From assembly GCF_010974825.1 (NCBI RefSeq), contig NZ_JAAILA010000011.1, positions 124,001-188,000 on the forward strand: a stretch of DNA of 64,000 nucleotides, in the 5' to 3' direction. Origin of the DNA: Aeromonas rivipollensis. Its GTDB lineage: Bacteria; Pseudomonadota; Gammaproteobacteria; Enterobacterales; Aeromonadaceae. Both the position numbers and the translations under genes were made by a program. Position 1 is the first letter of the stretch, and each line of letters begins with the position of its first letter. This document shows, piece by piece, positions 1,325 through 4,520 of this stretch. Under the pieces are notes generated by a model. The model was not told where the DNA came from, made no database searches, and saw only the letters and a program-made list of their open reading frames with translations.

Positions 1325-1861
1325 TTAAAGGTCTGGCAGGTCGCTGCGCAGCAGGGCGTAGTGGCGAAGGGAGATGAAGCCATCCCCCTTCCACTCGCAC
1401 TCCCGCGCCGTGCCTTCGTAGCGAAAGCCGGCTCGCTCCAGCAGGCGGGCGGAGGAGAGGCTGGGCTCCTCCACTACCGCCAGCAGCCGGTGCAGCGCTG
1501 TGGTGCGGTAAGTGAGCGGGAGCCACAACCGCAGCGCCGCGCTCATTACCCCCTTGCCCCAGTGTTCGGGATAGAGCCAGTAGCCGATCTCGGCCCCTTT
1601 GTGCTGCGGGTCGGCATCGTGGTAGCCGATGGCTCCCAGCGGCTCTTTGGTGCGCGGATTGCGAATGAGGTGCCAGGCACCGCGGCCCGTGCGGGTCAGC
1701 TCGGCGTACCACTCCATCTGGGCCTGACATTCTGCCAAGCTGTCGTAGCTGATGCCGTAGTAGGCGATGACACGCGGATCCGACAGGCCACGATAGATGT
1801 GGGGCAGGTCGGCCTCGATGACGGGATCCAGCCTTATCTCTGGCGACGTAGTTGACGTCAT
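1325..1861 (-). CDS. GNAT N-acetyltransferase, RimJ/RimL type
   Basis: A 178-residue acetyltransferase of the Acetyltransf_3/RimJ-RimL group, which transfers acetyl from acetyl-CoA to protein N-termini or small amines. The acetyl-CoA loop is visible as GYWLYPEHWGKGVMSAAL, and the C-terminal SSARLLERAGF helix is typical of the family. The frame extends upstream to 1948, but the ATG at 1861 is preceded at 6 nt by AAGGAG, and homology also begins there. It lies 83 nt downstream of the ABC-F gene on the same strand, so it is probably read from that promoter. Joint location with an ABC-F gene makes a drug- or ribosome-protection role imaginable, but the substrate cannot be read from the sequence. 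Confidence 0.8.
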   Translation of the reverse strand: MTSTTSPEIRLDPVIEADLPHIYRGLSDPRVIAYYGISYDSLAECQAQMEWYAELTRTGRGAWHLIRNPRTKEPLGAIGYHDADPQHKGAEIGYWLYPEHWGKGVMSAALRLWLPLTYRTTALHRLLAVVEEPSLSSARLLERAGFRYEGTARECEWKGDGFISLRHYALLRSDLPDL

Positions 1862-1944
1862 GGGGGCTCCTTGCGGCCAGTCGTGGCTGGCCGCTTGTGT
1901 TGAGTCAAACAGGGGGGGATGGCCAAGGCGGTTCATTGCTGCGC

Positions 1945-3678
1945 TCATGATTCGACAAGCCCGAGCAAGCCGGCCAGCCTTGCCAGCTCATGGCGCCACT
2001 CCTGCTGCAGCCGCGGGGTCTGGTGCCTGGGCTTGCGGGCGAGATCGGCGGCCAGCAGGGCATCGAGCTCATACCAGCGGGCCAGCAGCGCCTCTTCGTC
2101 ATCCTCAGTGCAGGCAGTGGCCTGGCGGGAATCGTGCCCGGATGACTCCTCAGCCACCACTCTCTGCTGGTGGTCGATCAGCTCGGCATAGGCCCGCTCT
2201 GCACTGTGGGCCTCCTGGATGCGGCCGTCTCTGATCAGCCAGAAGCGGTTGCAGCTGCGCTCGATCAGATCCCGATCGTGGGAGACCAGCAAGACGCCCC
2301 CGGGGAAGGCATTCAAGGCCTCGGCCAGCTCCTCCTTGCCCGCCAGATCCAGGTGGTTGGTGGGTTCATCGAGCCAGAGCAGGTGGTGGCTCGCCAGGGA
2401 GAGGGCGAGAAACAGCAGCCTGGCCCGCTCCCCCCCGCTCAAGGCGTGCACCCGCTGGCCATGGCGGGAGTAGGGGAAGCCCGCGCGGATCAGGGCCTGG
2501 CGCAGTGTCACCTCCGGCAAGGGCGCCAGGGGATAGAGGGCGTCGCTCAGGGTGGCGTCGCCGTCCAGCTGCTGCAGGGACTGATCGTAGTAGGCGATGC
2601 TGGCGCCGGGGTGGCGATACCAGCCCTCACCCGGCCCTTGATCGCGCAGCTCGCCCCAGCACTGGCGCAGCAGGGAGGACTTGCCGGTGCCGTTGGCGCC
2701 GAGCAGAGCGACCCTGTCGCCGGCCCGCAACCAGAGATCCTCGGCCCGCAGCAGGGGCGGCAAGCCGGGGGCGGGGTGCACCTCCAGGGCTTCCAGTCGC
2801 AGCAGGGCATTGGCGGGCAGTGCCTGCCCGTGCAGCTCGAGGCGCCAGGGGGCTGGCGCCGCGACCTGGCTCTGCTCCTCCTGCAGGCGGGTGATGCGTT
2901 TTTCCATGGACTTGGCCTGGCGCACCAGCTTCTCGTTGTCATGCTCCCGCCCCCAGGTGGCGAGGCGCTTGCTGCTGGCGCTCAGGCGATCGATCTCCTT
3001 CTGCTCGTCGGCCCGGCGCAGGCGGGCCTGCTCGTCCTCCTCCGCCAGCGCCACCCTGGCCTGACTGCAGGGCAGGGCGAAACGATGGAGTCGTCCATCC
3101 CGCAGGATCAGGGTCTCGCGGGTCACCCGATCGAGCAGGCGGGCATCGTGGGAGACCAGCACCAGGGCGCCCCGCCAGCCCAGGAGGAACTGCTCCAGCC
3201 AGAGCAGTGCGGGCAGATCCAGGTGGTTGCTGGGTTCATCCAGCAGCAACAGGTTGGGTTGGCGCAGCAGGGCGCGGCCTAGCTGCAACCGGGTGTGCTG
3301 GCCGCCGCTCAGGGCGCTGACGGGGAGTTCGGCCTGCTCTTCGAGCTGCAGCTCGGTGAGCATCTTGTCCACCTGCCAGTCGGCGGCGGGATCACCCGCC
3401 AGGGCATCCTGCAGCACGGCGCGGGTGCCTAGCCCTTGCAGCCTTGGGGGCAGGTGCTGGGCCACGAACTCGCAGCGGCAGGGGGCGGCCTGCTGCACCC
3501 GTCCGTCATGGGGTTGCAGCTCACCGGCCAGCAGGGCGAGCAGTGTGCTCTTGCCGCAGCCATTGGCGCCAATCAGGCCCAGGCGATCGCCGCTCTGGAT
3601 GCCGAGATTTATGTGGTCAAACAAGGGGAGGTGTCCCGCAGTCATCTGCAGGGAGTGGGTACTCATCAGTGTCGTCAT
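1945..3678 (-). CDS. ABC-F family ATPase, possible ribosome protection factor
   Basis: A 577-residue soluble protein with two ABC cassettes and no membrane segments, the ABC-F layout. Cassette 1 has Walker A GANGCGKS at 37-44, LSGGQ at 123-127 and LLLLDEPSNHLD at 143-154. Cassette 2 has GANGTGKS at 327-334, LSGGE at 413-417 and LLWLDEPTNHLD at 433-444. Between them is a charged helical linker (about 205-285), the part that reaches the peptidyl-transferase centre in ABC-F proteins. A C-terminal charged tail follows residue 500. It does not closely match EttA, Uup, YheS or YbiT by length or linker as I recall them, so it may be an antibiotic-resistance-type ABC-F. The unusual leader with an upstream ORF (3788-3874) supports drug-responsive control. 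The ATG at 3678 is preferred over an internal ATG at 3666, which lacks a ribosome binding site. Confidence 0.85.
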   Translation of the reverse strand: MTTLMSTHSLQMTAGHLPLFDHINLGIQSGDRLGLIGANGCGKSTLLALLAGELQPHDGRVQQAAPCRCEFVAQHLPPRLQGLGTRAVLQDALAGDPAADWQVDKMLTELQLEEQAELPVSALSGGQHTRLQLGRALLRQPNLLLLDEPSNHLDLPALLWLEQFLLGWRGALVLVSHDARLLDRVTRETLILRDGRLHRFALPCSQARVALAEEDEQARLRRADEQKEIDRLSASSKRLATWGREHDNEKLVRQAKSMEKRITRLQEEQSQVAAPAPWRLELHGQALPANALLRLEALEVHPAPGLPPLLRAEDLWLRAGDRVALLGANGTGKSSLLRQCWGELRDQGPGEGWYRHPGASIAYYDQSLQQLDGDATLSDALYPLAPLPEVTLRQALIRAGFPYSRHGQRVHALSGGERARLLFLALSLASHHLLWLDEPTNHLDLAGKEELAEALNAFPGGVLLVSHDRDLIERSCNRFWLIRDGRIQEAHSAERAYAELIDHQQRVVAEESSGHDSRQATACTEDDEEALLARWYELDALLAADLARKPRHQTPRLQQEWRHELARLAGLLGLVES

Positions 3679-3686
3679 GCTCTTGC
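3679..3686 (-). promoter_or_regulatory. Attenuator arm at the ABC-F start codon
   Basis: The eight transcript bases GCAAGAGC lie directly before the ABC-F ATG and after its GAGAG ribosome binding site. They are exactly complementary to the GCTCTTGC transcribed from 3812-3819 inside the upstream ORF. Pairing would bury the ABC-F translation start. The pairing is seen in the sequence; the regulatory role is inferred. Confidence 0.5.
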
Positions 3687-3787
3687 TCTCTTAAATGGCG
3701 GGATCGGAAATCCCTGTCATCAGGAGCGCTGGCGACAACGGTCGAGAAAGGTCTCGGTGTGGAAGGAGTCGGCTTTGCTCGAACCCG

Positions 3788-3874
3788 CTATCGCAGCGCG
3801 ATGGTATGCAGGCAAGAGCGGGCGAATGTGCCGAACAGGCGAGCCGAGAACATCGGACACGCTTGGATAACCAT
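3788..3874 (-). CDS. Leader peptide ORF upstream of ABC-F gene (28 codons)
   Basis: This small frame starts with ATG at 3874, six nt after AAGGAGG, a perfect Shine-Dalgarno and the best in the region, and ends at TAG 3788-3790. It encodes a 28-residue, cysteine-containing, mildly basic and hydrophobic peptide (starts MVIQACPMFSARLF, ends HTIALR). Codons 19-21 (Arg-Ser-Cys) contain the GCTCTTGC that can pair with the ABC-F start region 130 nt downstream. Leader peptides with this position and geometry control erm, cat and several ABC-F resistance genes by drug-induced ribosome stalling. A ribosome stalled near codons 14-20 would mask the inhibitory arm. No homologue is known to me. Confidence 0.6.
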   Translation of the reverse strand: MVIQACPMFSARLFGTFARSCLHTIALR

Positions 3875-3906
3875 TTTTTACCTCCTTGTGTTTCGTTATG
3901 GTCAGG

Positions 3907-3942
3907 TGCGGCGATTATAGGCGTAGAAAAAATAGCCGTCTA
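3907..3942 (-). promoter_or_regulatory. Promoter of the ABC-F leader transcript
   Basis: On the minus strand a perfect -10 TATAAT (3914-3919) lies 17 bp from a -35-like TAGACG (3937-3942, 4 of 6 consensus). Initiation near 3907 would give an untranslated leader of about 230 nt before the ABC-F start and would place the 28-codon leader ORF about 33 nt from the 5' end. The 3679-4082 gap holds this leader and the pliI terminator and no other gene. Confidence 0.65.
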
Positions 3943-4015
3943 TCGGGGAATAGGGGGGATATCGGGCTGTTATGGGGGCATCTGGCAGTGAAAAGGGGTC
4001 TTCATCGTAGCCTCC

Positions 4016-4049
4016 GGCAAAACAAGAGCCCCGCAGGGCGGGGCTCTTG
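4016..4049 (-). terminator. Terminator of pliI
   Basis: Twelve-base-pair perfect stem (4023-4034 with 4038-4049), 3-nt loop, followed on the minus strand by TTTT. It lies just downstream of pliI and upstream of the ABC-F promoter. Confidence 0.85.
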
Positions 4050-4082
4050 AATCAGGTATGCGGGTGCATCAGATGAGAGGGA

Positions 4083-4520
4083 TCAGTCGCGGGGGGTCTT
4101 GAGCGCCTGGATCACATCGTCACTGGGGGCCAGCCCCTCCACGTGGTTGAAGCTCTCCAGCCCCTCCTGCGCATTGATGGTGAAGGCGTCGGCGCTCTGG
4201 TAGCTGCCGCTGCCGGCGCTCTCGACCAGGACGATGAGCTCGGGCTGCTTGTCACCGTTGAGATCCAGCAGTTTGAGCGCCTTGATGCTGCCATCGCGAG
4301 GCATCACCTTGCCGTCGATGAACTGATCCAGGGGAAACTCGGGGTTGGCGCCTGAGTAGAGGCGCACGTCGTAGCTGCCGGTGGAGGCGGGCTCGCCGCG
4401 CCCCTCGCTGACTGTGAGCACCTGGCCCGTAGGCAGCGTCAGCTGCTGGAAGAATCCCTCCGCCGCCTGGCTGGTCAGGGGCAGGCTGAGCAGGCCGAGA
4501 GTAATGAGTAAGGCTTTCAT
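4083..4520 (-). CDS. pliI: Periplasmic inhibitor of I-type lysozyme (PliI)
   Basis: A 145-residue secreted protein that I recognise as PliI, the periplasmic inhibitor of invertebrate-type lysozymes first described from Aeromonas hydrophila. It binds and blocks the host enzyme's active site. A signal peptide (MKALLITLGLLSLPLTSQAA) is followed by the mature start EGFFQQLTLPTGQVLTV. The inhibitory loop is visible as ESAGSGSYQSADAF, holding the SGxY motif shared by lysozyme inhibitors, and a LLDLNGDKQPEL segment precedes it. The frame extends upstream to 4706, but the ATG at 4520 starts exactly at the signal peptide. An MliC-type inhibitor of C-type lysozyme is also encoded in this window at 38798. 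Confidence 0.8.
   Translation of the reverse strand: MKALLITLGLLSLPLTSQAAEGFFQQLTLPTGQVLTVSEGRGEPASTGSYDVRLYSGANPEFPLDQFIDGKVMPRDGSIKALKLLDLNGDKQPELIVLVESAGSGSYQSADAFTINAQEGLESFNHVEGLAPSDDVIQALKTPRD

Follow-up and report, generated by a model that had tools for sequence, protein, structure and literature searches.

In a 64,000-nucleotide stretch of the Aeromonas rivipollensis genome (contig NZ_JAAILA010000011.1, positions 124,001 to 188,000; hereafter the window), an ABC-F ATPase gene is quite probably controlled by a ribosome-mediated translational attenuator of the erm type. The attenuator would be formed by the leader of about 230 nucleotides between the promoter and the gene, which contains a short upstream open reading frame (uORF) and four arms, numbered 1 to 4 and named A, E-B, D-F and C (Table 1). 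In the free leader, arm 2 would fold onto arm 3 and arm 1 would pair with arm 4, shutting the ribosome binding site and the start of ABC-F; pairing of 1 with 2 and of 3 with 4 would be an alternative shut fold. A ribosome halted at about codons 14–23 would mask arm 1 while arm 2 still holds arm 3, and the ABC-F start would open. A ribosome at the stop codon would hide part of arm 2 and the start would stay shut, so that ordinary translation of the uORF would proceed without induction. The computed support comes from the conservation of the uORF, its protein-level selection in Aeromonas, the covariation of the folds, the opening energies and the one-to-one association of leader and gene. Ribosomes presumably do stall within the uORF. 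The trigger would be a ribosome-targeting compound acting as macrolides or phenicols/oxazolidinones do, in elongation and not at the start codon; a [F/Y/L]-[G/S/A] motif of the nascent peptide may aid the stall, which the ABC-F would then relieve.

The locus had previously been interpreted as an attenuator in a sequence-only reading, and this interpretation is supported by the analysis. It had assigned to ABC-F its own promoter with a perfect -10, and indeed a single sigma-70-like site was found in 3300–4100, versus 0.2 ± 0.5 in shuffled sequences, with TATAAT retained in 21 of 23 distinct Aeromonas leaders. The 28-codon leader ORF, with AAGGAGG 6 nucleotides before its ATG, is present as claimed (start ATG at 3874–3872 and stop TAG at 3790–3788, minus strand). 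The proposed complementarity between uORF codons 19–21 and the start site is exact over 8 nucleotides: GCAAGAGC at 3686–3679, which abuts the ABC-F ATG (3678–3676), is the complement of GCTCTTGC at 3819–3812. Its placement wholly between the ribosome binding site and the ATG did not hold, since the presumed binding site AAGAGAG (3692–3686) shares the first G of GCAAGAGC.

Relatives of the ABC-F were collected from 23 of 37 Aeromonas genomes, 32 of 295 genomes in the order, 56 of 177 in one other genus, 53 of 217 in one family and 4 of 12 in another. Named genome contigs gave 40 loci, of which 37 were used and three distant matches (L087-L089) were left out, and a plasmid collection gave 38 matching records, two of them fetched at first. 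These sets overlap, many contig loci duplicate whole-genome loci, and some genomes are counted twice in the 174 loci inspected. Among 369 genomes drawn from the class, only the window's own ABC-F was matched at E 1e-90. An intact uORF stands ahead of the ABC-F relative at 169 of the 174 loci (repeats included); to be counted it had to show GGAG, AGGA, GAGG or AAGG within 16 nucleotides, and three loci whose peptide ends deviate from the search pattern (L090, L139 and L141) were added manually. The remaining five comprise three leaders with a broken uORF frame and two distant ABC-Fs without the leader. The uORF of L106 and of L126 is out of frame only in its C-terminal part, with the leader kept, and in L162 the ORF ends early; these are either natural variants or draft errors, and they fit a sensor whose working part precedes the last codons. 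The two ABC-Fs without the leader, L183 and L184, have 44% and 40% identity, from which the leader marks one clade of a wider ABC-F group. The leader, with a uORF that is intact and 26-27 codons long, was also present in all six named records fetched later (two from Vibrio and one each from Photobacterium, Rahnella, Pantoea and Proteus mirabilis), which entered no alignment. Named carriers also include 18 Aeromonas species, Chromobacterium, a Pseudogulbenkiania metagenome-assembled genome, Burkholderia, Paraburkholderia, Morganella morganii and Klebsiella pneumoniae. The leader is thus dedicated to one ABC-F clade of beta- and gammaproteobacteria and is no peculiarity of Aeromonas.

A covariance model of the leader was also searched in overlapping sets of genomes, with stricter filters, at which weak matches are lost, for the order and the phylum. 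It gave one match in each of 23 of the 37 Aeromonas genomes, and these are exactly the ones with the ABC-F. In the order 31 of 295 genomes were matched, always at the ABC-F gene, and the 32nd ABC-F genome, without a leader match, carries a distant relative of 40% identity; in the phylum there were matches in 11 of 398 genomes, each at an already known ABC-F locus. Leader and ABC-F are therefore associated one-to-one. The leader is also more conserved than the silent sites of its gene: in the four groups of leaders, which carry the analysis's own names Aer, Beta, Ent and VibS (the last set by a sequence motif), leader identity versus identity at four-fold or silent ABC-F sites was 93.5% versus 72.2%, 80.6 versus 56.4, 73.2 versus 43.2 and 73.4 versus 35.0, respectively. 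The DNA upstream of the leader was 40–60% identical across groups, and 59.8% in the 150 bases upstream in Aeromonas. A search of 3600–4100 against Rfam with E up to 5 gave six weak matches, none at the gathering score and all beyond 3942, hence none over the leader.

For the alignment, identical leaders were merged and the five loci with a broken frame or no leader were omitted, which left 149 distinct leaders. The uORF has 26, 27 or 28 codons in all of them. Substitution rates (dN/dS, nonsynonymous over synonymous) were calculated on the unique uORFs that have the most frequent length (19, 17, 50 and 27 per group). In the 19 from Aeromonas, codons 2–17 gave a dN/dS of 0.137 in frame versus 1.73 and 1.11 in the other frames, and the uORF is thus under protein-level selection in this genus. 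In the other groups the in-frame value for these codons was the lowest of the three frames, yet no lower than 0.59–0.69. The last 11 codons, with in-frame values that exceed 1, evolve as RNA. The sequence-only reading had made conservation of the uORF in relatives a condition beforehand, and it was borne out both by the 169 intact loci and by this selection. Counting from the last residue, position -15 is F, Y or L in 146 of the 149 peptides and -14 is G, S or A in 136, both outside the named arms. Position -9 is S in 149, -2 is L in 147 and -1 is R in 148; the S and the R are largely fixed by RNA pairing. The sole peptide ending in Q instead of R (L048) keeps the pair of the stop-codon hairpin through a double change. 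The 149 leaders constitute a new candidate family of arrest peptides, which predicts which stall positions count.

The exact 8-nucleotide complement between arms A and C is kept in 22 of 23 Aeromonas leaders and in 11 of 19 of the Chromobacterium/Burkholderia type, and the longest complementary run in Aeromonas averages 8.7 nucleotides, versus 4.1 when the C arms are shuffled. The two arms co-vary between groups, with CTCTTG facing CAAGAG in Aeromonas and Burkholderia, and CTCAAG (A) facing CTTGAG (C) in the enteric and Vibrio-like groups. Pairs were counted for both folds on 39 of the 149 leaders, picked at <80% identity; the small hairpin common to the folds enters both counts, a local hairpin where the uORF ends enters the second as well, and in the five Aer/Beta rows the C arm is out of register. 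The fold 1:4 + 2:3 had 86.9% of cells paired, with double changes at 19 of 35 pairs, and 1:2 + 3:4 had 82.4%, with double changes at 17 of 30. The covariation score of either fold was reached by none of 500 shuffles and was above all slid versions, which had 32–47% of cells paired; the structures were drawn from the same 39-leader data and are therefore favoured over their slid versions. The hairpin GGGATTTCCGATCCC showed double changes at four of its five aligned pairs, with 72% of cells paired.

Cognate arms were also compared with arms swapped within each group. For A:C the cognate combination was favoured with Z of -3.6 in Beta and -8.5 in Ent, and weakly in VibS; for A:B with Z of -8.0 in Ent; and for E-B:D-F with Z of -4.1 in Beta, -6.5 in Ent and -8.2 in VibS. 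This test was uninformative in Aeromonas because the arms are too uniform. The expectation that the pairing would be conserved and covary thus holds for conservation in Aeromonas and for covariation in the other groups, the Aeromonas arms being too invariant for the latter. E-B:D-F is the strongest helix of the leader, with 23 expected pairs in free Aeromonas leaders. The single arm pairing that had been read as the switch is supported, but as one of at least two alternative folds, with a third element forming this strongest helix. RNAalifold, run per group, gave 1:4 + 2:3 in Aeromonas and partial folds only elsewhere. On a tree of 113 of the 149 ABC-F proteins, two A:B positions underwent four separate double changes and two one-sided changes with pairing kept. 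An unguided covariation screen of all column pairs against a tree-based null gave no significant pair because between-group splits dominate, and it was replaced by the tests of named helices and swapped arms. The arms of the leader accordingly form mutually exclusive pairings, with the start site sequestered by one arm; 3:4 is unsupported in Aer and Beta.

Taking into account that the position of the ribosome should decide which arms are free, we calculated the energy cost of opening the ABC-F start with an assumed ribosome footprint kept unpaired codon by codon (group means include 52 of the 70 Ent leaders). The opening energy drops mainly with the P site at codons 14–24 in Ent and 13–23 in VibS, and unevenly at 15–20 in Aer. 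In the first six codons the largest fall of any group mean is about 0.8 kcal/mol, and at the uORF end it is back to the free-leader value or higher in all four. With 12 leaders per group, passing from early codons to arm A lowered it from 10.5 to 7.1 kcal/mol in Aer, from 7.6 to 5.0 in Ent and from 7.7 to 5.2 in VibS, and with the ribosome on the final sense codon it was 10.9, 9.3 and 8.8 kcal/mol. Each of these three differences was matched by one of 36 shuffled controls, and the mean difference between early codons and arm A disappears when the upstream sequence is shuffled. These three group means agree with the proposal that a stall near the arm would open the start, whereas Beta agrees weakly and the window's own leader irregularly. 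An opening window of about codons 14–23 makes drugs that halt ribosomes at the first codons poor candidates for inducers. Very short ABC-F uORFs have been tied to drugs of that kind, and macrolides, phenicols and oxazolidinones stall ribosomes according to context (PMC10201436; here and below papers are cited for the parts of their text that were available). By the folding model, lincosamides and pleuromutilins would be less likely inducers than context-dependent elongation inhibitors.

Four results weigh against the attenuator as drawn here. The same pair of A:B positions underwent seven changes that leave no standard pair, mostly on the Aer/Beta branch. D:C, that is 3:4, was favoured by the swap test only in Ent and opposed in Beta and Aer. 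In Beta the fall in opening energy from early codons to arm A was weak (10.0 to 9.4 kcal/mol). The window's own leader (L001) was irregular and partly contrary, with 10.0 kcal/mol when free, 7.7 at codon 12, 7.8 at codon 15 and 12.5 at codon 17.

Among other explanations, transcription attenuation, in which the stalled ribosome would prevent a terminator in the leader from forming, survives best and is still improbable. Such a mechanism has been reported for msrD (PMC10314930), and abortive transcription termination has been described for antibiotic-resistance ABC-Fs generally (PMC10201436). A lenient scan found a terminator-like stem in 61 of the 149 leaders (37 of 70 in Ent), versus 19% of shuffled ones. 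However, these are fewer than half of the leaders, 21 of the 61 stems fall inside the uORF part, six examples have 5–7 pairs at differing places, and the terminator scan of 3300–4100 gave no terminator-like site. A conserved intrinsic terminator of the msrD type was not found before the gene. Rho-dependent termination after failed translation would add to translational attenuation. A little less probable is a stall at the uORF stop, with slow termination sensed or relieved by the ABC-F. The conserved L and R before the stop would suit it, and MsrD is reported to act on the complex stalled on its own leader (PMC10314930); but with a ribosome there part of arm 2 is hidden and the opening energy stays about at the free-leader level or above. 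The conserved uORF end doubles as an RNA element, as seen in L048, and in L106 and L126 the leader persists with the peptide end out of frame.

It is very unlikely that the leader is an RNA switch that binds a ligand or protein and works whether or not the uORF is translated. The strong conservation of the folds and the RNA-like evolution of the last 11 codons could be read in that way, but not the protein-level selection on codons 2–17 in Aeromonas, the Shine-Dalgarno-like site at every counted uORF or the length differences that preserve the frame. Least likely of all is an amino-acid starvation attenuator, in which scarce charged tRNA would stall the ribosome on arm A: the layout is similar, but the opening window holds no single-amino-acid run common to the groups, and its sole invariant residue, the S at -9, sits in arm A and is largely fixed by pairing.

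Translational attenuation has a classical model in ermC and its leader peptide ErmCL, in which a ribosome stalled on the leader covers arm 1, arms 2 and 3 pair, and arm 4 is released together with the start site. The leader described here shares with it a short leader ORF and, as proposed, the same arm logic. It differs in that the target is an ABC-F and not a methyltransferase, the peptide is different and longer, the hosts are Gram-negative, and the leader ORF runs on into arm 2, where it ends with its stop codon. To our knowledge, drug-sensing leaders of ABC-F resistance genes have been described mainly from Gram-positive bacteria. Closest in host is toiL, ahead of topAI-yjhQP of Escherichia coli (PMC12121999), where a Gram-negative uORF also pairs with the downstream ribosome binding site and stalling opens it; there, however, a toxin-antitoxin operon is controlled and induction is proposed for stalling anywhere, here mainly at codons 14–23. 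In MsrDL/msrD (PMC10314930) a leader peptide likewise controls an ABC-F gene via ribosome stalling, but in Streptococcus, by transcription attenuation with a Rho-independent terminator and with a different peptide. Conserved uORFs also stand ahead of the genome-encoded ABC-F resistance genes cplR, vmlR, vmlR2 and lsaA (PMC10201436); those are Gram-positive, with uORFs of three or four residues that are proposed to respond to drugs acting just after initiation. Because it combines translational attenuation with a hairpin sequestering the Shine-Dalgarno sequence, cplR is the nearest ABC-F precedent (PMC10201436). Its uORF has three codons and its sequestering hairpin doubles as a terminator, in contrast to the 26–28 conserved codons, the four arms and the lack of a terminator in 3300–4100 here. 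A published leader of this ABC-F gene was not found in the open-access literature among the matches listed, and the available parts of PMC8632094, PMC10987492, PMC6429828 and PMC5776109 contain nothing on it.

The putatively leader-controlled ABC-F is an additional one, considering that four other ABC-F ORFs were examined in the same genome. No curated model of antibiotic-resistance ABC-Fs (AREs) was reached: the best NCBIfam match, NF000355, 'ribosomal protection-like ABC-F', scored 317.5 bits, below its cutoff of 380, and named ARE models, among the best 25 of 187 families, were far below theirs. From the first Walker A to SHD, the presumed arm region, the protein of the window has 139 amino acids versus 169–177 in the four other ABC-Fs, which shortens the first ABC domain by about 30 residues at the presumed arm position. 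The linker stretch from SHD to the second Walker A has 151 amino acids in all 110 measurable relatives (of 113), versus 140–143, an extension of about 10 residues and not about 30. AREs commonly, not universally, have a reduced arm and an extended linker (PMC6723617). The same paper describes PAF1, a predicted resistance factor of Vibrio, Enterobacter, Klebsiella, Serratia and Citrobacter but not Escherichia (PMC6723617), and the words leader, uORF and attenuat- are absent from its main text. A blastn search (E 1e-20) with the leader-bearing Klebsiella gene gave no match among 20,395 E. coli records. The patchy distribution of the gene, in Klebsiella, Vibrio and 23 of 37 Aeromonas genomes and not in E. 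coli, agrees with the PAF1 pattern, and our ABC-F probably belongs to this subfamily, beside which it was set by distribution; it is a predicted resistance factor. The Aeromonas ABC-F (L001) is 57–64% identical to those of Chromobacterium/Burkholderia (L065-L086) versus about 46–54% to those of other leader-bearing genomes of the same order, a closer kinship that suggests an old horizontal transfer. The gene occurs in the 38 records of the plasmid collection, one of them a Morganella plasmid of 50.6 kb (L090) on which the leader is present and several GNAT genes lie close by; the true number of plasmids is below 38, as some records are chromosome-sized (Klebsiella 5.37 Mb, Proteus 4.08 Mb).

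The conserved leader gives a regulatory reason to suppose that stalled ribosomes are what a PAF1-like ABC-F found in Klebsiella, Vibrio, Aeromonas, Proteus and Burkholderia responds to. The leader is also a ready reporter, since its inducer and the target of the ABC-F are likely to coincide. We tentatively extend the proposal, with less assurance than the attenuator itself: a dedicated arrest peptide and a four-arm switch may together make the locus an inducible system of intrinsic ribosome protection in Gram-negative bacteria, Klebsiella and Vibrio included, codons 14–23 might discriminate elongation-phase, context-specific stalls from start-codon stalls, the ligand is possibly natural, and the ABC-F may clear the stall and so shut off its own synthesis.

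Table 1. Features of the attenuator locus in the window
Feature	Position	Strand	Basis
Sigma-70-like promoter, TAGACG-17-TATAAT	3914..3942	-	promoter scan; -10 kept in 21/23 Aeromonas
uORF Shine-Dalgarno, AAGGAGG, 6 nucleotides ahead of ATG	3881..3887	-	read from sequence
uORF, 28 codons, MVIQACPMFSARLFGTFARSCLHTIALR	3788..3874	-	conservation; codons 2-17 dN/dS in Aeromonas
Arm A (1), GCTCTTGC, uORF codons 19-21; partner C, alternatively B	3812..3819	-	covariation, folding
Arm E-B (2), final uORF codons, stop and next 15 nucleotides	3773..3799	-	helix with D-F
Arm D-F (3), CTTTCTCGACCGTTGTCGCCAGCGC; partner E-B, alternatively C in Ent	3726..3750	-	covariation, folding
Small hairpin upstream of ABC-F start, GGGATTTCCGATCCC	3700..3714	-	covariation
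Arm C (4) and presumed ABC-F ribosome binding site, AAGAGAGCAAGAGC	3679..3692	-	swap test, conservation
ABC-F ATPase, 577 amino acids, putative regulated gene, probable PAF1 subfamily	1945..3678	-	profile matches
GNAT acetyltransferase, weak RimL-like match, overlaps ABC-F ORF end; start codon uncertain	1325..1948	-	

The GNAT gene downstream had been suggested as part of the same response, and outside Aeromonas this role was not supported by the counts of downstream neighbours. Within 1500 bases, a same-strand relative was found in 19 of 23 Aeromonas loci, in none of the 19 Beta or 42 Ent loci, and as a weak match (28%) in 2 of 29 VibS loci, and it is thus essentially Aeromonas-specific. The GNAT that is annotated downstream in Klebsiella lies on the opposite strand. 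On the other side of the locus, upstream of the ABC-F promoter and unflagged by the terminator scan, the minus strand carries at 4022–4050 a GC-rich, terminator-like inverted repeat, AAGAGCCCCGCCCTGCGGGGCTCTT.

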